A DNA stretch of 64,000 nt from Candidatus Aenigmatarchaeota archaeon (GTDB lineage: Archaea; Aenigmatarchaeota; Aenigmatarchaeia; QMZS01). The position numbers were made by a program, and so were the translations under genes. The stretch spans positions 157,409 through 221,408 of the forward strand of contig JAFGCN010000009.1 of NCBI GenBank assembly GCA_016932615.1, written 5' to 3'. The notes below the pieces were generated by a model. It was given only the letters and a program-made list of their open reading frames with translations, did no database searches and had not been told where the DNA came from. This document shows positions 35,086 to 45,265 of the stretch, piece by piece; the first letter of the stretch is position 1; each line of letters begins with the position of its first letter.

Positions 35086-35895
35086 TTATCTAGAGAATAC
35101 CCTCCTGAGAAGGATTATGGCCAGAAATATGGAGAGGTTAACGAGGACAATGGTTCCGGATACCGCAAAGTCAAAGTAGTATGCGGCCACAAGCCCCAAA
35201 ACAACGGAAAGCACGGCGATTGCAGCAGATGAGATGAGGGTATTTCTGAAGCTGAGCTTTAGCTGCAGTGCAGAGGTGGCGGGCATAATTATCAGGGCTG
35301 AAGCGAGAAGAAGTCCAACAACCCTCATTGAGCTTACGACGGTTACTGCGGTAAGAGCGATAAGGGCAGTGTTCAGGGCATCAACTTTCACGCCAGAGGT
35401 TCTTGCCGAATCTTCGTCAAAAGTAAGGTAGACAAGCTCGCGGTAGAAAAGCGCGATAACTCCGATTACGCAGGCGGAAAGAAACACTGAGAGCAGGACC
35501 TCCTCGCTTCTTATAGACAGGATGCTTCCGAAAAGGTAGCTTAGAATGTCCACGTTGAACCCGCCTGCAATGCTTGCAATGAATACGCCTATTCCAAGGC
35601 CCGCATGGCTTACCATGCCTATTGCAGCGTCCCCGTACAGCCGGGCTTTTTCCCTAAGCTTCAGGATTCCAAGTGAACCGATTACCCCGAAAATCAGGGC
35701 ACCAAAAAAAGGCATTATGTTGAAAAGAAGCCCGGTTGCAATGCCTCCAAATGATATGTGAGCAATCCCGTCACCCATAAGGGCGTACCTCCTGAGGACC
35801 AGGAAAACGCCAAGAAGAGAGCAGGCAATGGCGATAACTATCCCGGTTAAAAATGCCTTTTGCATAAACCCATATCCGATAATTTCGAAAACCAT
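35086..35895 (-). CDS. znuB: Zinc/manganese-type ABC transporter permease (ZnuB family)
   Basis: This 269-aa integral membrane protein is the channel of a zinc-type ABC importer (ABC-3 family). About eight hydrophobic helices are visible. The family pattern MGDGIAHISFGGIATG (about residues 40-55) and the later RTSGVKVDALN loop are typical of ZnuB/TroC. I start it at the ATG at 35895, three nt after the znuC stop, rather than at an upstream TTG overlapping znuC. It forms an operon with znuC and znuA. Confidence 0.93.
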   Translation of the reverse strand: MVFEIIGYGFMQKAFLTGIVIAIACSLLGVFLVLRRYALMGDGIAHISFGGIATGLLFNIMPFFGALIFGVIGSLGILKLREKARLYGDAAIGMVSHAGLGIGVFIASIAGGFNVDILSYLFGSILSIRSEEVLLSVFLSACVIGVIALFYRELVYLTFDEDSARTSGVKVDALNTALIALTAVTVVSSMRVVGLLLASALIIMPATSALQLKLSFRNTLISSAAIAVLSVVLGLVAAYYFDFAVSGTIVLVNLSIFLAIILLRRVFSR

Positions 35896-35897
35896 AT

Positions 35898-36647
35898 TCA
35901 GCCCCTGTGAAGGCAAAGCATATGCTCGCCTTCCGAAAGCTTGTGCCCGTGCTTTTTGTCATAGACGCAGAAGTCCTTGTGGCTTCCGTAGAACTCGAGC
36001 GTCTGGTTCAAGCTTGCAACCTTTGTGACGTGGCGTGTGATTCTTCCAATGTCATGCGATACCAGGACGATTGTTATGCCCTTGGAATTAAGTTTTCCCA
36101 AAAGCCGGTAGAAGTTTTCCTGCGACTTTATGTCAACGCCGGTCGTCGGCTCGTCGAGAAAAAGTATTTCCGGCTTCGAAACAATGGCCCTTGCGATGAA
36201 CACCCTCTGCTGCTGCCCTCCTGAAAGCTCCCCTATTCTTCTTTTCGAGTAGCCGTCCATGTCGACGGTTTTAAGCGCAGCCATCAGCGTCTCTTTTTCC
36301 TGTTTGCCAAGAACCTTTGGAAAGCGCATTTTTGACAGGAGCCCCATGGCGGCAACTTCTATTACGGTTGCGGGAAAGTTAGGGTCTATGCTCGTCGCTT
36401 TCTGCGGGACGTACCCGATTTTGCTCCATCCGGAGAAGTTTGAGATGCTATCGCCAAAGAGCTTTATTGAGCCCTTTTGGAGCTTGTAGAGCCCGAGCAT
36501 TAGCTTCAGGAGGGTTGTTTTTCCGGAGCCGTTCGGGCCGATAAGCCCCACAAAATCGCCCTTGTAAATCTCCAGGGAAATGTCTGACAAGACTTTAAGT
36601 TTTCCAAATTTAAAATCCACCCCCTTCACCTCAACTAATGGCCCCAT
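35898..36647 (-). CDS. znuC: Zinc-type ABC transporter ATPase (ZnuC family)
   Basis: This 249-aa nucleotide-binding subunit energises the importer. Walker A is GPNGSGKTT (residues 37-45), the ABC signature LSGGQQQR and Walker B ILFLDEPTTGVD are intact, and the switch His lies in VSHDIG. Family resemblance to ZnuC/MntB is supported by the adjacent ABC-3 permease and the His-rich binding protein. It begins 6 nt after znuA and ends 2 nt before znuB. Confidence 0.95.
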   Translation of the reverse strand: MGPLVEVKGVDFKFGKLKVLSDISLEIYKGDFVGLIGPNGSGKTTLLKLMLGLYKLQKGSIKLFGDSISNFSGWSKIGYVPQKATSIDPNFPATVIEVAAMGLLSKMRFPKVLGKQEKETLMAALKTVDMDGYSKRRIGELSGGQQQRVFIARAIVSKPEILFLDEPTTGVDIKSQENFYRLLGKLNSKGITIVLVSHDIGRITRHVTKVASLNQTLEFYGSHKDFCVYDKKHGHKLSEGEHMLCLHRG

Positions 36648-36653
36648 ATTGAT

Positions 36654-37634
36654 TTAGCTGCACTCAAGAGCAATCCTTAGCGACTCAAGGTTTTTTTCCA
36701 TAATTGATAGGAAGGTTTCTCCATTAGCCAGCTCTTCCTTGCTGATGGTCTGGCCAGGGCTTAGCACAAGGGTACTTGCGCCCATTTCCTTTGCAAGAGT
36801 CTCCGACAGCCGTGGGTCGGTGTTCTTCTCGAAAAGGACATATTCAAGCCCATTTTCCTCTGCAAGCTTTGCAATTTCCTCGATTCTTTTGGGGCTTGGC
36901 TCACTGTCCGGAGATATGCCGTAAACAGAAAATATGGTGAAGTTATACCGTTTTGCAAGGTAGGAGTATGCGTTATGCCCCCCGGTTATGATTGCCTTTT
37001 TCCGGCAGTTCCCTAGCGTAGCGGAATAATTCTGGTCAAGTGAGAGCAGCTTTTTCTTGTACTCTGCGGCATTTTCAAGGTAATATTTTGACCTTTCCGG
37101 GTTTTTTTCTGACAACTTGGCGGCTATCTCATCCACAATCCGGGCGTCGTTTTCAAAGTCCAGCCATATGTGGGGATCATACTCTCCGTGCTCGTGGTCG
37201 CTGTGTTTTTCTCCCCCCTCTTCCACGGAAGGCTCTTCTTCATGCCCGCTGGCTTCTTCAGAGGATATCAGGACTGAAACTTTGCTTGCCTCTATGGCAG
37301 TCAGGTTTGGGTTTTCAAGGCCTCCAAGAATATCTTCTGCCCAGGGTTCCATGCCAGGCCCAATGTAGATAAACAGGTCCGAATTTTCTATTTTTGCAAT
37401 GTCTCCCGGGCGGGGGTCGAAGTGGTGCACGTCGGTTCCAGGAGGAAGTATAAGAGTCACCTCCAGGTCTTTCCCGCCAACCACTTTTGCAAACTCGTAC
37501 AGGGGAAAAATGGTGGAGCTTGCCCTGATTTTTCCGCTTTCTTCTCCAGCGGTTTGGTAAACGCACCCCGAAAGCAGAATGGTAGCCAGCAATACTGCCA
37601 GTATATTCAGCTTTCCAAGGCGATTCATAAACAT
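36654..37634 (-). CDS. znuA: Zinc-binding solute-binding lipoprotein of an ABC importer (ZnuA family)
   Basis: The 326-aa receptor captures zinc outside the cell. An N-terminal signal ends in the lipobox-like LLSGC (Cys24), so it is probably lipid-anchored. Metal-site histidines are seen in DVHHFDPRPGD and in ITGGHNAY. The loop between them is His/Glu/Asp-rich (HSDHEHGEYDPHIW), the usual zinc-specific hallmark. Met3 (37628), preceded by GAAGG, may be the real start. The 42-nt gap to the divergent 37677 gene must hold both promoters. I see no clear zinc-repressor palindrome there. Confidence 0.93.
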   Translation of the reverse strand: MFMNRLGKLNILAVLLATILLSGCVYQTAGEESGKIRASSTIFPLYEFAKVVGGKDLEVTLILPPGTDVHHFDPRPGDIAKIENSDLFIYIGPGMEPWAEDILGGLENPNLTAIEASKVSVLISSEEASGHEEEPSVEEGGEKHSDHEHGEYDPHIWLDFENDARIVDEIAAKLSEKNPERSKYYLENAAEYKKKLLSLDQNYSATLGNCRKKAIITGGHNAYSYLAKRYNFTIFSVYGISPDSEPSPKRIEEIAKLAEENGLEYVLFEKNTDPRLSETLAKEMGASTLVLSPGQTISKEELANGETFLSIMEKNLESLRIALECS

Positions 37635-37676: not shown

Positions 37677-38402
37677 ATGCGTAAGCCCCTTTTGCTTGCC
37701 TTTTTGCTTATTGCTGCGGCTTTTCCGGCAATGGCGGAGGACTACTATGCGGACGTCCAGATTAAGGTCTGGCATGCTGGAGAGGTCGAAATATCGGGCA
37801 CGACAAACCATCCGACCCTTGCTCCCGGAGTTTACCAGAACTTCACAAGCAAGTCCGGCAGCATGTGGGTTTTGAACATAACCCTCCCGGAGACTTTTTC
37901 CGAGTATGTTTATGATGTTGAGCTTCCGCAAAAATCTCAGGTAAATTACCTGTCGGTACCCAAAAATATCCGGATGGAGACGCGTGACGGTGCGCTTCAT
38001 CTTATCGGCTCGGGCATGGACCAGAAGTTTTTCGTGGTTGTGCAGTACAGCTATGATGGCACCCCTCCACCCCAACCTCCAAGCCCAGTAGTGCCTCTGG
38101 CTATTTTTGCGCTTGTAATTGCGGGAATCGTGGTGCACTACAGGTTCAAGATAAAGAAAATAAAATTGGTGCCTCCGAAAATCAGGAAGGGCTATAACCC
38201 TCTCGCGCTTACTGAGCGGCAAAAGGAAATTCTTGACTTTATCGAAAAGGCAGGAAACGCCACGACACAGGCAAAGCTTCAGGCGGGGACAAATATTCCC
38301 AAGGCATCGCTTTCCCGAAATATAGATGCGCTCGTAAAGAAGGGAATTCTGAAGCGGGAACGGAAGGGGATGACAATGGTTGTTTATTTTAGTGAGGAAT
38401 AA
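37677..38402 (+). CDS. Membrane-anchored winged-helix regulator with extracellular sensor domain
   Basis: The 241-aa protein has a signal peptide (residues 1-20, ending AMA) and a beta-rich ectodomain of about 115 residues with sequons. One membrane span lies near residues 138-158 (VPLAIFALVIAGIVVHYRF). A cytosolic C-terminal wHTH follows (about 178-241: LTERQKEILDFIEKAGN, then recognition-helix region IPKASLSRNIDALVKKG). This layout matches archaeal DUF7345/DUF7343-type one-component sensors. It diverges from znuA and stands just upstream of three co-regulated transcription units with shared promoter architecture, so it is the best candidate for their regulator; that link is inference. Confidence 0.85.
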   Translation: MRKPLLLAFLLIAAAFPAMAEDYYADVQIKVWHAGEVEISGTTNHPTLAPGVYQNFTSKSGSMWVLNITLPETFSEYVYDVELPQKSQVNYLSVPKNIRMETRDGALHLIGSGMDQKFFVVVQYSYDGTPPPQPPSPVVPLAIFALVIAGIVVHYRFKIKKIKLVPPKIRKGYNPLALTERQKEILDFIEKAGNATTQAKLQAGTNIPKASLSRNIDALVKKGILKRERKGMTMVVYFSEE

Positions 38403-38413
38403 GCATTAACCTT

Positions 38414-38470
38414 TTCCGGCATATTTCGCACTATTCCGCATTTTTTCAGGGAACTTATATGGGCTGTTCC
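38414..38470 (+). promoter_or_regulatory. Phased TTCCG-box promoter, copy 1
   Basis: Boxes TTCCG (38414), TTTCG (38424), TTCCG (38434) and TTTCA (38444) are spaced exactly 10 bp. Then GAAC (38451-38454) and GTTC (38466-38469) flank an 11-nt TATA element, TTATATGGGCT. The same register recurs at 40197 and 43718. An ATG lies exactly 30 nt after the first TATA-element base. Confidence 0.75.
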
Positions 38471-38484
38471 GCCGAAGTGGGCTT

Positions 38485-38535
38485 ATGCCTGCCGCCCGAT
38501 GCCGGAAGCGAAAAGAAATGGGCCATAGCAAATAG
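38485..38535 (+). CDS. Putative 16-aa basic leader peptide
   Basis: An ATG placed 30 nt after the TATA element opens a 16-codon frame, MPAARCRKRKEMGHSK, with six basic residues and a TAG stop 41 nt before the secreted protein's ATG. Its position matches the ABC ATPase start and a second leader frame behind the sister promoters. Translation is inferred. Confidence 0.4.
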   Translation: MPAARCRKRKEMGHSK

Positions 38536-38576
38536 CGCATATCAGGCAAGTGGGCGGAAAGGCATGTAAGAAAAAT

Positions 38577-39173
38577 ATGAAAGGAATAAGTATGTTGGGC
38601 GCAGTAGCCCTGTTGGTGGTAGGTTCAGTGCTGGTAATGGGCGTGTCGATGGCTGACGGAACTGAAAACTCTGTCGGAAACACCTGGAGAGCAGAGGCAG
38701 TGCAGGCAGTAGAAGACAATAACTTTGACGCCTGGAAAGCCGCTATGCTTGGCGGCCTGACTGTTGAGAGATTCAACGGTATTGTGCAGAGGTTCCAGGG
38801 TAGGTCTGAGATGAAGGCACAGATGCAGGAAAGGGAAACCGCTGTTCGTGAAGCCCTTGAGCAAGAAGACTACGAGGCCTGGAAGGCGGCAGTTGATTCC
38901 TTTGGAAAAGGAAGAAACGTCTCTGAAATGGTGTCCGAGGAAGAGTTTGCAACAATAGTCGAGATATACAAGGCAAGGGAAGCGGGAGACTACACGACTG
39001 CAAGAACCCTCATGGAGGAAAGCGGCCTTGGCCTGCTCCCCGGAATCGGCTCTGTTATGGGCATGAGCAGAGAGATGGGAGCTAAGGGCCAGGGAATCGG
39101 AATGGGCGGCAAGGGCGAGCGCGAAATGAAGCGAGACCGTGACTGCACTGGCCTTGGAAGGGACTTTGAGTAA
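38577..39173 (+). CDS. Secreted helical protein with repeated WKAA motifs and Met/Gly-rich tail
   Basis: From the ATG at 38577 the product has 198 aa with a signal peptide (MKGISMLGAVALLVVGSVLVMG...). The mature part is helical and contains two related repeats (NNFDAWKAAMLGG and EDYEAWKAAVDSF) and a third weaker one, a pattern seen in small secreted proteins of uncultured prokaryotes. The C-terminus is Met/Gly-rich (MGMSREMGAKGQGIGMGG). A GTG nine codons upstream is a less likely start. It is driven by the phased promoter at 38414 and may act outside the cell in the same response as the ABC operon and the 43839 gene. A T-rich terminator follows. Confidence 0.75.
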   Translation: MKGISMLGAVALLVVGSVLVMGVSMADGTENSVGNTWRAEAVQAVEDNNFDAWKAAMLGGLTVERFNGIVQRFQGRSEMKAQMQERETAVREALEQEDYEAWKAAVDSFGKGRNVSEMVSEEEFATIVEIYKAREAGDYTTARTLMEESGLGLLPGIGSVMGMSREMGAKGQGIGMGGKGEREMKRDRDCTGLGRDFE

Positions 39174-39200
39174 GAAGCAGCTTTTCTCTAGACCGAAGCG

Positions 39201-39227
39201 ATTTTGTTTTCTTTTTTGTTTTTATTG
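39201..39227 (+). terminator. T-rich archaeal terminator
   Basis: The stretch is almost entirely T with runs of four, four, six and five, starting 28 nt after the stop of the 38577 gene, as expected for archaeal intrinsic termination. Confidence 0.55.
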
Positions 39228-39272
39228 CAGACCTTATCTGGAGCTGATTTGTATATTTGCAATAATTAGAGG

Positions 39273-40100
39273 TTAACTAGTTATTACTTTGAGAGCCCAT
39301 TTCGCTAATGCAAATAGAATCAATAAAACTGTGAGAATCGCGGTGATTGTTATGGCAATAAGATACACGATGGGTGTTGCGAAGGGATTATTTCCTAATT
39401 GTATTCCCCAAAAATTATTCGCAAAGTAATTGACGTATCTGCACAAGTGAGGGGATTGTGCTGATACAATTAGACCTAGAGAAGCAAAGAAGATTATTGC
39501 AGAAATAAAAGCAGAAAGAAACAATAGGATGAATGTGTGCTTGGTGATAATTTCTTCCAGGCTGCAATTATAGCGAAGATAGAGGATGATACATGCAAGG
39601 ATAAGGCCCATTATGAAGGTTGGTATGGAATAAAAGATGGACAGTACCACCAATTGTGGGAAATCTAACTCAAAAAATACCTTTTTGCACATAGGCGAAA
39701 CGAAGTGAGATGCATTTTGGGGGTTAATTAAATCCTCATAGATATCTGAGGCGTAAGGGGTATTTAAATGATAAATTGCAGTAAAACTTTCTGGGGTTTC
39801 ATTGAAGCTACATTGAGAATAGGTTTTGTTATGTCCAAGGTACACTAAACTGAAGCACTCATAGCCATCATACTGGGTGAAGTAGATATAACCTGAACCA
39901 ATACAGGTTAGGGAAAGTATGATGAATAGGTACGCAATTATACGTTCCCCGGATATGTTTGACCAGTGATTATTGGCAGAATTTTTATCTGAGGCCCTCT
40001 TGTGGCTTACCGTAAGTTCATCAGAAATACCGGTCAGAGATAAATTCAGACGATTTGGCGAGGGCTTTTTTATTCCAACATGTTTAGTTTCCTTAACCAT
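39273..40100 (-). CDS. Hypothetical polytopic membrane protein, AT-richer orphan
   Basis: The 275-aa product has a polar N-terminal 50 residues and about four membrane spans (IIAYLFIILSLTCIGSGYIYF, then about 150-170, 195-215 and 245-268). A Cys-containing extracellular loop lies between the first two. No family is recognised. It is markedly AT-rich in bases and codons, and lies antisense within the otherwise co-regulated 37.7-45 kb block, so it looks inserted. An AT-rich start region without a clear ribosome site precedes it. Confidence 0.65.
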   Translation of the reverse strand: MVKETKHVGIKKPSPNRLNLSLTGISDELTVSHKRASDKNSANNHWSNISGERIIAYLFIILSLTCIGSGYIYFTQYDGYECFSLVYLGHNKTYSQCSFNETPESFTAIYHLNTPYASDIYEDLINPQNASHFVSPMCKKVFFELDFPQLVVLSIFYSIPTFIMGLILACIILYLRYNCSLEEIITKHTFILLFLSAFISAIIFFASLGLIVSAQSPHLCRYVNYFANNFWGIQLGNNPFATPIVYLIAITITAILTVLLILFALAKWALKVITS

Positions 40101-40196
40101 AATTAACTTCTGCTATGAGATATACTTTCCAAAATCTGTAGGGCTCTAGGGATACAGGAAAATCGTTTCTGTAGTGTAAACTGCCCAAAATACCCG

Positions 40197-40233
40197 TTCC
40201 ACCTTGTTCCGCCTAACCTATTTATATTGTTCC
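40197..40233 (+). promoter_or_regulatory. Phased TTCCG-box promoter, copy 2 (ABC operon)
   Basis: TTCCA (40197) and TTCCG (40207) are 10 bp apart. TAAC (40214-40217) and GTTC (40229-40232) flank the 11-nt TATA element CTATTTATATT. All distances equal those in the 38414 and 43718 promoters. The ATPase ATG lies exactly 30 nt after the first TATA-element base, so the transcript is probably leaderless. Confidence 0.75.
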
Positions 40234-40247
40234 GGCCCATTTTTGGA

Positions 40248-41000
40248 ATGGAAAAGACGGAAAAAGGGACGAGAAAATGCTTCTCCGGCGACAAAATCAT
40301 TTCGCTTAAGAATGTCTGGAAGGTTTATAAGATGGGTGAAGTCCTCGTGCCTGCATTAAAGGACGTTACCGTGGATATACATGAAGGCGACTTTGTCGCA
40401 ATAGTCGGCGCTTCTGGTTCCGGGAAATCGACTATGATGAATATGGTCGGCTGCCTTGACACGCCAACAAAGGGGGAAGTTTATTTAAAGTCAAAGAACA
40501 TAAGCAAGATGCCTGAGTCTGAGCTTGCCTCGCTTCGGGGACGGGCAATTGGGTTTATATTTCAGCAATATAACTTAATGCCCCACATGACCGCTTACGA
40601 AAATGTAATTCTCCCACTTGAGTTTCACGGTTATGATGATGAAACTGCCCACAAAAGGGTTGTTGGGGTCTTGAACCTGGTCGGGCTTGCAGGCAAGATG
40701 TATAATCGCCCTTCGCAGATGTCGGGCGGAGAGCAGCAGAGAGTGTCGATTGCTCGCTGCCTTGTAACAGACCCTGATATAATACTTGCAGATGAGCCGA
40801 CAGGAGCTCTTGACAGTGTGAGGGGAAAAGAAGTCCTTACCCTTTTGCAGAAGCTTTGGAAAGAAAAAGGAAAGACGGTTATTATGGTTACGCATGACTT
40901 GAATCTTGCGCGCATGGCTTGTTCGGTTATAGAGCTGAAAGACGGTGAGATAGTTTCGTCAGGGCCGCTCAAGGAGGCCTTGCGGAGGACTGCAGCATGA
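40248..41000 (+). CDS. MacB/LolD-type ABC transporter ATPase
   Basis: The 250-aa subunit has Walker A GASGSGKST (residues 54-62), the signature MSGGEQQRVSIAR, Walker B IILADEPTGALD and the His in VTHDLN. This is the MacB/LolD/FtsE branch, whose members drive mechanotransmission or export rather than import. The start is the ATG at 40248; a TTG seven codons upstream lies inside the TATA region. Homologues usually begin near IISLKNVWKVYK, so the first 16 residues (MEKTEKGTRKCFSGDK) are a basic extension. Its length matches the leader peptides of the sister promoters. It overlaps the next gene by 4 nt. Confidence 0.93.
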   Translation: MEKTEKGTRKCFSGDKIISLKNVWKVYKMGEVLVPALKDVTVDIHEGDFVAIVGASGSGKSTMMNMVGCLDTPTKGEVYLKSKNISKMPESELASLRGRAIGFIFQQYNLMPHMTAYENVILPLEFHGYDDETAHKRVVGVLNLVGLAGKMYNRPSQMSGGEQQRVSIARCLVTDPDIILADEPTGALDSVRGKEVLTLLQKLWKEKGKTVIMVTHDLNLARMACSVIELKDGEIVSSGPLKEALRRTAA

Positions 41001-42427
41001 AAACTCATCCTATTTTGTTTGGCTTAATAATTGTCTTTTTGCAGTTTTGCGCGGTTTTTGCAGCCCCGACTTCGGGGGCAAGCATTGTAGATTATAATGA
41101 GAGAAGCATAATTTCAGTTAGTCTAGTCAACCAGGACCCGGACCCTGCAATATCGGGAGACATAATTGAAGTGCGTATAGGCATTGAAAATAAGGGCGGG
41201 GAAGCAGTAAATGACCTTATGGTGGAGGTAGTTCCAACTTATCCGTTTGAGCTTGTTTCAGGCGAAACCGGCCTGCTGAACGCAGGGACGATCAATGGCT
41301 ACCAGCAGAATTCCGAGATGAAAATTCTCAAATACCGCCTGAGGGTTAACCGGGAGGCATCAGCCGGCTCTTATGAGCTTAAAGTAAGGTTCTATGAAGA
41401 GGGCTCTGGGCAAGTTTCGGAAAGGACCTTTTCGATTGACATTCAGAGCAGAGAAAGCGCAGAAGTAATCTATATAGATAAGACCGTCCTTATCCCGGGA
41501 AAGATGAGCACCATGACGTTTACGATAAACAATGTGGGGAGTTCGCCGCTTCGCGACCTGAACTTCAAGTGGTCGAACCCTGATAAAATAATACTTCCTG
41601 TTGGAAGCGATAATGCAAAGTATGTCCGGTACATTGATGTAGGCGAAAGCGCAGAGCTTGAGTATCAGGTCATAGCCGACACGAATGCAGATGTCGGGCT
41701 TTACGAGCTTGACTTGTGCCTTTCATATACCGACCCGCTCACAGGCAGTGAAAAGACCATCTCGACACTTGCGGGAGTGTATGTTGGTGGGGAAACCGAT
41801 TTTGATGTGGCTTTTTCTGAAAGCTCAAGCGGAACAACTTCATTTAGTATTGCAAACATAGGAAATAATCCTGCATATTCGGTTTCTGTCATAGTCCCAA
41901 GCCAAAGGTCCTGGAGTGTTCAGGGCCCAAACTCGGTAATAATAGGAAACCTCAACAAGGGGGATTATACCGTTGCAAGCTTTACGCTCCAGCAGAGCGG
42001 CTCAACAATGCAGATGCCTAATGGAACAAGGGGGGTTGGAATGGCGAACGCAACGACTGACGGAATCGCTGCACAGGATAGGGACCGCAACATGACGGCT
42101 TTCCAGAACCGGACAATGCAGGCACAGTCCAGCACGATTCTCCTTCAGGTTGCCTACACAGATACTCTGGGAGAGAGGAGGATTCTTGACAAAGAGGTCC
42201 AGATGGCTTCACAAAGTAGCGGCAACACGACCTTTGCAATGGCCCGCACAGCAGGCAGGAATGGCACATACCCACAATCGCAAGGGGGTCTTGGAAACTA
42301 TGTCTGGCTGATATCTGGCTTTATCGTTCTGGCAGGGGGCTTTTTTCTTTACAGGAGGCACAAGAAGAAAAAACAGGCGTCCATTGAGTTTAAGGAGGGT
42401 AATTTTCTTTCCAAAAAGAAGAAATAG
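40997..42427 (+). CDS. Extracellular COG1361/CARDB-type protein of the ABC operon
   Basis: The 476-aa product has a signal peptide (first 23 residues, ending VFAAPTS). Three or so repeated CARDB/NEW3-like beta domains follow (for example DIIEVRIGIENKGGEAVNDLMVEV). A Met/Asn/Gly-containing stretch is found around residues 335-375. One C-terminal span (YVWLISGFIVLAGGFFLY) is followed by a strongly basic tail. It is translationally coupled to the ATPase gene (ATGA) and followed after 15 nt by the permease. In archaea this type of gene often sits between a MacB-like ATPase and permease; I infer a periplasm-like adaptor or substrate receptor replacing MacA. Confidence 0.88.
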   Translation: MKTHPILFGLIIVFLQFCAVFAAPTSGASIVDYNERSIISVSLVNQDPDPAISGDIIEVRIGIENKGGEAVNDLMVEVVPTYPFELVSGETGLLNAGTINGYQQNSEMKILKYRLRVNREASAGSYELKVRFYEEGSGQVSERTFSIDIQSRESAEVIYIDKTVLIPGKMSTMTFTINNVGSSPLRDLNFKWSNPDKIILPVGSDNAKYVRYIDVGESAELEYQVIADTNADVGLYELDLCLSYTDPLTGSEKTISTLAGVYVGGETDFDVAFSESSSGTTSFSIANIGNNPAYSVSVIVPSQRSWSVQGPNSVIIGNLNKGDYTVASFTLQQSGSTMQMPNGTRGVGMANATTDGIAAQDRDRNMTAFQNRTMQAQSSTILLQVAYTDTLGERRILDKEVQMASQSSGNTTFAMARTAGRNGTYPQSQGGLGNYVWLISGFIVLAGGFFLYRRHKKKKQASIEFKEGNFLSKKKK

Positions 42428-42442
42428 CCCTTTCAAAATAAG

Positions 42443-43690
42443 ATGAAATTCAGGAAGTGTTTCAAGCACGCTTTTAATATGGTAGTGCACAGCAAGCTTA
42501 GAAGCTGGCTAACCATAATAGGAATTGTAATTGGCGTTGGGTCTGTTGTCGCGATTCTTGCATTAAGCGAAGGAATGCAGGAGTCGATGAATGACCGGCT
42601 CGGGGCGCTTGGAGGCGACATACTTACGCTTTCTGCCGGCTACTCGAGAGGAAGCAGCATGATGGGCGGCAGGGAAGGGCCTGATGGCAGCTTTGGCGGA
42701 AGCGGAGGCGCAACGGCAACTGACGATGAGCCGGTAATCGACCGCTCGGACGTTCAGGCGCTTAAGTCAATACCGGACATCGCAATAATCAGCCCAACTA
42801 TCAGGGGAAATGTCAAGGTATCCTATTTAGGAAAATCCGGGTCTGTTTCCCTTACGGGCGTTGACCAGGCAGTCTGGTCGAAGATAACCACCGCTGAGAT
42901 AAGGGATGGCAGAATGCTTGACTCGGCAGACCAAAACGTCATCGTAATCGGCTCCCGGCTTGCGGACTCTTACTTCAGCCAGCCGCTTGGGATAAGCAAG
43001 TCCATAACTATCGAGGGAAGCTCTTTTAGGATTGTCGGGATTCTTGATGACGAGAGTAACAGCATCTATATGCCAATGCAGATGGCATACCAGGTTCTTG
43101 AGGACAAGGATTACGGAGTTTACGATTCGGTTACTATTAAGATAAAGGACGAGGAAACCTTGAACGAAACAATGGAGAAAATCACCAGCAAGCTTATGCT
43201 GGTCCGGCATGTTAATGAACGGACCAAGGACTTCACGCTTTCTTCAAGCAAGCAGATGCAGGCAACTCGCGCTGAGATGATGAGTTCCATGACAATTTTC
43301 CTGACAGCCATTGCGGCAGTTTCACTGATTGTCGGCGCGGTAGGGATAGCAAATACGATGTTTACCTCAGTTCTCGAAAAGACAAAGGAGATTGGGATAA
43401 TGAAGGCCATAGGGGCAAGAAACTCGGACATAATGATGATTTTCGTGCTGGACTCTGCAATTATCGGCTTTGTCGGCGGGGCGCTTGGCCTGCTTCTTGG
43501 AATGGCGGCTTCGATGGCCTTTCCGACACTGATGGGCGAGACAATGATGTTTCGCTCAGGCGGCGTGGTTTCCATGAGGATAATTATTCTTGCCTTGGGG
43601 GTTTCTGTTCTTATTGGTGTTTTGTCAGGGCTTATTCCAGCTTACCAGGCGTCCAAATTAAAGCCGGTGGATGCACTGAGGTATGAGTAG
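42443..43690 (+). CDS. MacB/FtsX-type ABC transporter permease
   Basis: The 415-aa protein has the four-span MacB layout. One N-terminal span (about residues 20-40, WLTIIGIVIGVGSVVAILAL) precedes a large extracellular MacB_PCD domain (about 45-275). Three C-terminal spans carry the FtsX motifs IGIMKAIGARNSDIM and the terminal PVDALRYE. A Gly/Ser-rich insertion lies near residues 70-95. It completes an ATPase-adaptor-permease operon likely exporting peptides or lipophilic compounds, or acting as a mechanotransmitter for envelope proteins. Confidence 0.93.
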   Translation: MKFRKCFKHAFNMVVHSKLRSWLTIIGIVIGVGSVVAILALSEGMQESMNDRLGALGGDILTLSAGYSRGSSMMGGREGPDGSFGGSGGATATDDEPVIDRSDVQALKSIPDIAIISPTIRGNVKVSYLGKSGSVSLTGVDQAVWSKITTAEIRDGRMLDSADQNVIVIGSRLADSYFSQPLGISKSITIEGSSFRIVGILDDESNSIYMPMQMAYQVLEDKDYGVYDSVTIKIKDEETLNETMEKITSKLMLVRHVNERTKDFTLSSSKQMQATRAEMMSSMTIFLTAIAAVSLIVGAVGIANTMFTSVLEKTKEIGIMKAIGARNSDIMMIFVLDSAIIGFVGGALGLLLGMAASMAFPTLMGETMMFRSGGVVSMRIIILALGVSVLIGVLSGLIPAYQASKLKPVDALRYE

Positions 43691-43717
43691 CAGGGCAGGA
43701 AAATTTTTGGGCTGTTT

Positions 43718-43774
43718 TTCCGAATTGTTCCGGACCTTTCCGTGATATTTCAAAGAACCTATATATGCCGTTCC
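43718..43774 (+). promoter_or_regulatory. Phased TTCCG-box promoter, copy 3
   Basis: TTCCG occurs at 43718, 43728 and 43738, and TTTCA at 43748, all exactly 10 bp apart. GAAC (43755-43758) and GTTC (43770-43773) flank the 11-nt TATA element CTATATATGCC. A GTG lies 30 nt after the first TATA-element base. Every distance equals that in copy 1. Confidence 0.78.
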
Positions 43775-43788
43775 AGACAAGTAATTTT

Positions 43789-43842
43789 GTGCCTGGGTCC
43801 AAGAAAGATTTTTTGGGCAAAGGCGCAGGAAAAGAAAAATGA
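43789..43842 (+). CDS. Putative 17-aa basic leader peptide overlapping the 43839 start
   Basis: A GTG at the expected leaderless position opens MPGSKKDFLGKGAGKEK. Its TGA (43840-43842) overlaps the ATG of the following secreted-protein gene, the classical arrangement for translational coupling. Six of 17 residues are lysine. It parallels the 38485 leader in position and character. Translation is inferred. Confidence 0.42.
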   Translation: MPGSKKDFLGKGAGKEK

Positions 43843-45038
43843 TGCGAAGTGATAGTATGGGTACAGTGCTGTTGCTGCTGACGGGCTTATGCCTTATGCA
43901 GCTTGCAATAGCAGACGAAACACTAAACCAGACGTTGGAAAACGAAACAGATGCCAACCTCACTAATGAGGCCGGCAACGAAACAAACGAGACCGTTGAC
44001 AACACGACGGTCATCACGAACGAGACTAATGAAACCAACGAGACCGCAGGCGAGTTGACGAACGAGACAAATGAAAATTCAGGCGACCTCACAAATGAAA
44101 CCGAAAACCAGACCGGCGAAATGACAGACCTGAACCAGACAGATCAAAACGATACTGCTTCTAACTTGACCGAAGCTGACATTAATGAGGCAAAGTCAAT
44201 ATCCTGCCCATATGGTGCGGAGGTAAGGTTCCTTGAGCTTGAAAAAAGAATTGAAAGAAACCTTCTTGTCGGCTCTGTAGTAGTAGCGGCGATAACTGAA
44301 AATGACCCCGATGCGGACGTAAGCGAACTGGTTGCAATCCTGGGCGAGATGGAAGACCTTCTTGAGGTTGTAAGAAATACCGACCGCGATGGAAACAAGC
44401 TGGAGCTTGCAAAGACCTTTGTCGACCTGAAAAAGGATGCCATAATTCTTACTATGGAGTTCAGGAAGCTTGCGCATGAGTTTATGACTCCGAAAAACCG
44501 GGAGCGCGTGATGGTTCAGGCAAGAATCGCAAATGCCACGAACTTCACTGAGATTGACCAGCGGCTTAACCAGGCAAGGAAAAACTTTAATGCACACAAG
44601 ACCGAAGAATTCCTTGGAGTGATGAATTCGAAAGACCAGGAGTTAATAAAGAGAATAAGAGAGGGATCAGTGAATATGTCCGAGATAAGAAACCAGATTA
44701 TGGAGCGCTTCCAAAACCTTACCAGTGAGGAGCAGCAGGGCTTTGTTGGCAGGGCAAGGGAGATGTCTATAAAAAACAATATCGCAAAGAAGAACCTTGC
44801 TCTTGAGATGAAGCAGGACCGCCTTGAGCAACGGCTTGAGAGGACAGAGCAGTTGCAGGAGCGGGTTCGCGAAAAGATGCGGGAGTTTAATGCAACAGGC
44901 GTTAACCACACGGCACTGATGGAGCAGCTTCAGGAAAGGGTCAGGCAGAGTGACAACCTTGGGCATGGCATGGGAAAGCAGCAGCAAGTGATGGGCGAGA
45001 TGGGCGATATGCGCGGAAACGGGGTACCTGGAAGATGA
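43839..45038 (+). CDS. Secreted protein: Asn/Glu/Thr sequon-rich spacer and coiled-coil domain
   Basis: The 399-aa product (starts at Met1 or Met2) has a signal peptide ending near LAIA (about residue 25). Residues 30-110 are a tandem of N-E-T-like units (NETNETAGELTNETNE), almost every one an N-glycosylation sequon. The remainder is long amphipathic helix, with coiled coil in the last 120 residues (DRLEQRLERTEQLQERV), and a Met/Gly-rich tail. It could resemble Spy/CpxP-like envelope chaperones in fold, but no signature is firm. It is driven by the phased promoter at 43718 and coupled to the next lipoprotein gene by a 4-nt overlap. Confidence 0.8.
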   Translation: MMRSDSMGTVLLLLTGLCLMQLAIADETLNQTLENETDANLTNEAGNETNETVDNTTVITNETNETNETAGELTNETNENSGDLTNETENQTGEMTDLNQTDQNDTASNLTEADINEAKSISCPYGAEVRFLELEKRIERNLLVGSVVVAAITENDPDADVSELVAILGEMEDLLEVVRNTDRDGNKLELAKTFVDLKKDAIILTMEFRKLAHEFMTPKNRERVMVQARIANATNFTEIDQRLNQARKNFNAHKTEEFLGVMNSKDQELIKRIREGSVNMSEIRNQIMERFQNLTSEEQQGFVGRAREMSIKNNIAKKNLALEMKQDRLEQRLERTEQLQERVREKMREFNATGVNHTALMEQLQERVRQSDNLGHGMGKQQQVMGEMGDMRGNGVPGR

Positions 45039-45265
45039 AAACAAAGCTTTTTTTGGCCCTGTTTTTGCTGGTTGCTACTGTTGCCTTTTCCGGCTGCATA
45101 GGAAGCGACACGCAGGACAATTCTGAGGTTCCTATGGAGAACAACTCCCAGCAGGTAACTATCCAGGAAGAGCCGGCCGTAGAGCAGAATGCCGAGGTCA
45201 TAGAGCAGGTGGATGCAGAATTGATGGATGACATCGATGACGTGGAAATCGGCGAAATGGTTTAG
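45035..45265 (+). CDS. Small acidic lipoprotein
   Basis: The 76-aa product has a lipoprotein signal (KTKLFLALFLLVATVAFSGC, Cys21). A mature part of 55 residues follows that is dominated by Glu, Asp, Asn and Gln and probably unstructured (ending DDIDDVEIGEMV). Its start overlaps the stop of the 43839 gene, so it is the last member of that transcript. I recognise no family. An acidic, anchored tail suggests metal or peptide binding at the membrane surface. Confidence 0.72.
   Translation: MKTKLFLALFLLVATVAFSGCIGSDTQDNSEVPMENNSQQVTIQEEPAVEQNAEVIEQVDAELMDDIDDVEIGEMV

Follow-up and report, generated by a model that had tools for sequence, protein, structure and literature searches.

A 64,000-nt stretch of a Candidatus Aenigmatarchaeota archaeon genome (contig JAFGCN010000009.1; hereafter the window) exhibits three promoter regions, P1 to P3, in which short TTCCG-like boxes recur at 10-bp steps ahead of a TATA element (Table 1). 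A preliminary description of the sequence proposed that a protein bound to one face of the helix controls the three downstream transcription units as a single regulon, and named the winged-helix protein encoded at position 37677 (hereafter 37677) as the candidate binder. Which protein reads these boxes, and with what effect on the promoter? Comparison of archaeal genomes makes it highly probable that P1 to P3 are operators of 37677, a predicted membrane-tethered one-component regulator controlling a small envelope regulon.

Table 1. Coordinates of the regulator gene, promoter elements and target genes in the window
Feature	Position	Strand	Description	Evidence or occurrence
Regulator 37677	37677..38402	+	membrane-anchored winged-helix protein, 241 aa	Pfam, AF2 model, co-occurrence with boxes
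P1 upstream array	38414..38448	+	TTCCG 38414, TTTCG 38424, TTCCG 38434, TTTCA 38444	sequence; kept in relatives
P1 TATA element	38455..38462	+	TTATATGG	sequence; same position across relatives
P1 box after TATA	38466..38471	+	GTTCCG	23 nt from last upstream box
Target gene 1	38577..39173	+	secreted protein, 198 aa	relatives behind module in G004/G005/G008/G010
P2 upstream array	40197..40211	+	two boxes: TTCCA 40197, TTCCG 40207	
P2 TATA element	40219..40228	+	TATTTATATT	sequence
P2 box after TATA	40229..40234	+	GTTCCG	
Target operon 2	40248..43690	+	MacB/LolDCE-like ABC system	orthologous operon with module in G004/G005
ABC operon, ATPase	40248-41000	+		
ABC operon, exported protein	40997-42427	+	CARDB/NEW3-type	
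ABC operon, permease	42443-43690	+	MacB/FtsX	
P3 upstream array	43718..43752	+	four boxes at 10-bp steps: TTCCG 43718/43728/43738, TTTCA 43748	
P3 TATA element	43760..43767	+	TATATATG	sequence
P3 box after TATA	43770..43775	+	GTTCCA	
Target gene 3	43839..45038	+	secreted, mostly helical, 'GAEVRLLQLE' family (cross-phylum)	
Small lipoprotein gene	45035..45265	+	overlaps end of 43839 gene	

All box coordinates and spacings of the preliminary description were recovered when the sequence was re-read. The boxes in the window follow the form TTYC (TTCCG, TTTCG, TTCCA, TTTCA), with TTCCG favoured. By direct reading, P1 and P3 exhibit GAAC (at 38451 and 43755, respectively), followed after 11 nt by GTTC (38466 and 43770); P2 exhibits TAAC at 40214 and, again after 11 nt, GTTC at 40229. 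The pattern TTYCN6TTYCN11WWN5GTTCC matches the window three times, against 0.01 matches expected from 100 dinucleotide shuffles. The organism's own genome (1.26 Mb) was examined by pattern search. With 0 mismatches, TTYCN4AACN11GTTC retrieves P1 to P3 and two matches lacking a TATA element, and a second relaxed pattern retrieves P1 to P3 and one unrelated match; with one mismatch allowed, the latter yields 24 matches, close to the 17 of a backward control. The other matches at 0 mismatches lack either the TATA element or GTTCC. The full arrangement, which would speak against a dedicated regulon if it were common at unrelated promoters, is confined to P1 to P3 in this genome. The ATG of the ABC ATPase (40248) lies near the expected start site of P2, the transcript of which is possibly leaderless.

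The arrangement is found well beyond this genome. G004, G005, G008 and G010, four genomes from the family of this archaeon, each carry an orthologue of 37677 followed by a 38577-like gene. G004 and G005 also carry the complete ABC operon on the contig of the regulator, whose gene stands directly behind it. In two other families the regulator is present with different neighbours. The module lies directly after the regulator gene in all these related genomes, and a three-box version precedes the ABC operon in G004, G005 and G008 (contig C31). A scan of 84,980 genomes for orthologues of 37677 identified 32 loci, distributed over Aenigmatarchaeota, Woesearchaeota/Nanoarchaeota, Altiarchaeota, Diapherotrites and one Thermoplasmatales bin. 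The module is detected by automatic score in 27 of them, a score at which reversed sequences give no match. Variant modules were read by eye in L110, L121, L125 and L126, the last of which keeps the upstream array and lacks the box after TATA; overall, about 30 of the 32 loci carry the module just 3' of the gene for the orthologue, and L122 ends at the regulator gene. All but one of the modules scored automatically either follow the regulator gene immediately or precede the ABC operon.

Alignment of these sites defines a unit in which two to four GTTCC boxes, spaced by 10 bp, are followed by a TATA element and, 23 nt past the last upstream box, by a further GTTCC. The consensus aligned on the last box is TTGTTCCG-nn-TTGTTCCG-c-n-ttt-TTCCGGc-n-AA-nn-TTTATAT-g-CTGTTCCA, and information content along the aligned sites exhibits a period of about 10-11 bp. 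Of 33 sites, 29 have a distance of 23 nt from the last upstream box to the final box, three have 22 nt and one has 24 nt. The GTTCC after TATA is nearly invariant among the sites compared, and in nearly all main-family sites it lies 3-4 nt after the TATA element. The preliminary description had the TATA element framed by GAAC and GTTC. Both halves are present at P1 to P3 (as TAAC in P2), but among the sites with 23-nt spacing GAAC or TAAC before TATA occurs only at P1 to P3 and in L106, and the GAAC half is therefore not a conserved feature. The GTTC half is a further copy of the TTGTTCC box and matches the upstream boxes in both sequence and orientation. Accordingly, the "frame" is a direct repeat flanking the TATA element on both sides. 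A GAAC/GTTC inverted repeat as operator was considered and rejected, as it is not conserved among the aligned sites.

The 37677 protein (AF2 model, pLDDT 92) comprises a signal peptide, a beta ectodomain (residues ~22-126), a transmembrane helix (138-161) and a winged helix-turn-helix domain (176-240) with the recognition helix IPKASLSRNI. Pfam searches with 37677 return MarR_2 (1.5e-7, 31.9 bits, cut-off 27) and MarR (25.1 bits, cut-off 24.6), with HTH_24 above its cut-off too; DUF7343 (PF24034), an uncharacterised Pfam family, scores 21.3 bits against a cut-off of 27.6. In their winged-helix part, all 30 aligned regulators match DUF7343 at E<=0.01 (best 3.4e-11). A structure search retrieves many MarR structures at Z above 10, with alignments that cover the winged helix only. 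37677 thus carries a MarR winged-helix domain and, having a transmembrane helix and a DNA-binding domain in one chain according to the AF2 model and Pfam, exhibits the architecture of a transmembrane transcription regulator (TTR). The ectodomains of the regulators share no common Pfam match. For the ectodomain of 37677 (residues 22-126), Ost1/ribophorin I chains head the Foldseek list, at low TM-score. A ZnuABC-like metal uptake operon (35086-37634, minus strand) is divergent to the regulator gene, and the intergenic stretch between the two contains no box array.

This protein and the boxes share a joint distribution across genomes. Among 156 Aenigmatarchaeota genomes, TATA-bearing sites occur in 7 of 7 with a full-length regulator and in 0 of 149 without it. 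Among 371 Nanoarchaeota-type genomes (the phylum of G162), searched with a position-weight matrix trained on other phyla only and with the pattern positions fixed by the search left out, sites were recovered from 24 of the 44 genomes that encode the regulator, against 1 of the 327 that do not (Fisher 1e-24); the genomes are related and such counts are not independent events. The sole regulator-free genome with a site, G210, exhibits a divergent regulator copy directly upstream. The 20 regulator-match genomes in which the strict pattern finds no site are explained partly by variant spacing, and the six strong-regulator genomes outside the 24 each show some site: variant modules by reading in G466, G473, G182 and G187, a lower-scoring site in G229, and in G181 a site that flanks the regulator gene on its opposite side (L120). 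A natural negative control is G153 (L262; genome 83% complete), in which a 43839-like gene is preceded by a TATA-like stretch with no boxes, and a full-length regulator was not detected. Several sites are unlinked to the regulator gene. In G231 the site lies before a 43839-like gene on contig C2 and the regulator on C1; sites on G172:C95 and G502:C8 precede other secreted proteins, and P2 and P3 of the window also count as unlinked. Because of the sites in G231, G172:C95 and G502:C8, the module is not simply part of the 3' end of the regulator gene.

A sister subfamily of regulators, compared by eye in a small sample, exhibits the recognition helix PKASFSRH or close variants, versus PKxSxSRN in the main family. 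At seven sister loci (L237, L238, L247, L251, L252, L253, L255), GTTCCA boxes 10-11 bp apart precede a TATA-like element, and no GTTCC follows it. The upstream array is thus shown to be the more constant part of the module. In L239, with the helix PKPSFYRH, the boxes are GTCTCA and lie 12 bp apart; L240, L241, L249 and L250 exhibit no array at the corresponding place. This parallel variation fits a direct contact between recognition helix and box, and a specificity code relating the two is possible.

Taken together, the comparative evidence strongly supports the three proposals of the preliminary description, i.e. a single regulon, boxes phased on one face of the helix next to TATA, and, on the basis of co-occurrence, the 37677 winged helix as the likely binder. 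In the mechanism that we propose, the beta-type ectodomain would sense something outside the cell, and the cytoplasmic MarR/DUF7343-type winged helix would bind the GTTCC row on one helix face, one domain per 10-bp turn, while also occupying the additional box just after TATA. The regulon would comprise the secreted 38577 protein, the ABC operon (40248-43690), and the secreted helical protein with its small lipoprotein (43839-45265). The sites, their fixed spacing across phyla and their joint occurrence with the regulator are observed; contact with DNA, the fitting of one domain to each turn, perception of a signal and the sign of control are inferred.

Explanations without 37677 as binder fare less well. 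Three copies within 5.3 kb, with P1 and P3 alike, might suggest a repeat spread through recent duplication inside the window, or chance; however, the flanks differ outside the boxes and TATA, the count expected by chance is far too low, and the module is present in other phyla, which leaves this idea next to no probability. The fixed TATA distance and the 10-bp phasing would equally suit a variant core promoter (extended BRE plus proximal element) or a DNA-bending signal. This reading is very improbable, since the genome contains three such sites only, regulator-free relatives contain none, and GTTCC is not an A-tract. Both the core-promoter variant and chance were rejected on the grounds of the cross-phylum module, the three genomic sites and the 0.01 expected matches. 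Another soluble regulator encoded elsewhere might instead bind the boxes, the membrane protein being its neighbour or partner. A point against 37677 as binder is indeed that MarR proteins usually bind palindromes as dimers and not head-to-tail repeats, whereas the conserved module sites are direct repeats; moreover, 37677 is linked to the DNA through sequence comparison. Nevertheless, 37677-type proteins and sites are gained and lost together across phyla, the module accompanies the protein even when unlinked (G231), and the L239 box differs where the recognition helix differs, so that we consider a separate soluble regulator unlikely.

With 37677 retained as the predicted binder, the direction of control is less clear-cut. 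Our first choice, held with modest confidence, is activation, the upstream array helping TBP/TFB; repression or dual control by the boxes flanking TATA comes second, at a little short of an even chance. An array abutting the place of the BRE, as in the activator EarA (PMC5512572), fits activation, as do the sister arrays without a downstream box. A box located after TATA, in contrast, speaks for repression, as it could obstruct TBP/TFB. In its strict form, with 37677 as a pure repressor whose binding to boxes on both sides of TATA excludes TBP/TFB until an outside signal releases it, this alternative is tentative and appears less probable. It is consistent with the near-constant box after TATA and with the location of the regulator gene directly behind the ABC operon in G004/G005, which would suit negative feedback. 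The TATA elements, of ordinary strength, also favour it: they are no weaker than the TATA elements of tRNA genes (p=0.75), and the weak core promoter expected under activation was not found in this comparison. Against pure repression stand the EarA-like layout and the retention of the upstream array, without the box after TATA, in the sister subfamily and in L126.

Regulators of the ToxR/CadC type carry an N-terminal helix-turn-helix of the OmpR-type fold and work with bacterial RNA polymerase. 37677 differs in having a C-terminal MarR/DUF7343-type fold, with no N-terminal OmpR/PhoB-type helix-turn-helix, and in belonging to archaeal TBP/TFB promoters. The likeness lies in a single-pass protein with the DNA-binding domain inside and the sensor outside (PMC10269533, PMC5430869). 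Archaea commonly possess membrane regulators (PMC10269533). The site is known for few of them. The ArnR/ArnR1 proteins of Sulfolobus acidocaldarius (PMC6396743) are likewise membrane-bound one-component regulators, with two boxes upstream of a surface-structure operon, but they exhibit an N-terminal HTH, two C-terminal transmembrane helices and inverted repeats (TCGAC-N5-GTCGA), without an outside sensor domain of the 37677 kind. EarA of Methanococcus and Thermococcales, as presented in the sections of PMC5512572 and PMC10665913 drawn on here, is an archaeal winged-helix regulator of a surface-structure operon; its boxes lie immediately upstream of BRE/TATA, as four 6-bp sites in M. maripaludis and as one to three adjacent motifs in Thermococcales. 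The multiple short direct boxes at this position are a trait shared with P1 to P3 (PMC5512572). In those same sections, however, the EarA box is TACATA-like with archaellum targets, versus GTTCC with secreted proteins and an ABC operon here, and they describe for EarA neither a post-TATA box nor a membrane anchor, both of which belong to the 37677 system. ArnR and EarA are thus the nearest studied cases, differing in box, layout, protein architecture and targets. The winged helix of AspA from plasmid pNOB8 (PDB 5k5q, 5k1y) is weakly like that of 37677 in sequence and fold; AspA is a plasmid centromere-binding protein with no membrane anchor and no TATA context.

Our literature search returned no paper on DUF7343, nothing matching a DPANN regulon or tandem phased archaeal sites, and no description of a regulator together with its operator in DPANN archaea. 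We give about even odds to the broader proposal of an undescribed cassette in several archaeal phyla, mostly DPANN, in which MarR/DUF7343-type winged helices would stack head-to-tail on phased GTTCC boxes around TATA, with the promoter inside the array, and drive secreted helical proteins and small lipoproteins. If true, archaea would possess a so far unreported way of controlling promoters. The placement of TATA among phased boxes is relevant to the action of archaeal regulators on TBP/TFB. Regulator, box, TATA spacing and targets are all readable from genomes alone.

As to the targets, the gene behind the module encodes a 43839-like secreted helical protein in most loci. The module also precedes genes of the 38577 family, genes for DUF5667-like proteins and the MacB/LolDCE-like ABC operon. 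In the window, the 38577 gene and the ABC operon intervene between the genes for the regulator and for 43839, and each has a module copy to itself. A similar, very short lipoprotein gene follows the 43839-type gene in several phyla, as in L095, L228 and L236. With few exceptions the targets are exported or reside in the membrane, so that the regulon is most naturally read as serving a response of the envelope or cell surface; such targets may be relevant to the surface life of DPANN archaea. A structure search with the 43839 model gave no match at E below 0.1. In three woesearchaeal loci (L112, L123, L244), a DUF5667-type secreted protein stands behind the module in place of the 43839 family. 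The C-terminus of many 43839-type proteins is a short tail rich in Gly-Gly, e.g. RGGNGR, VKGGN or GGGRR.
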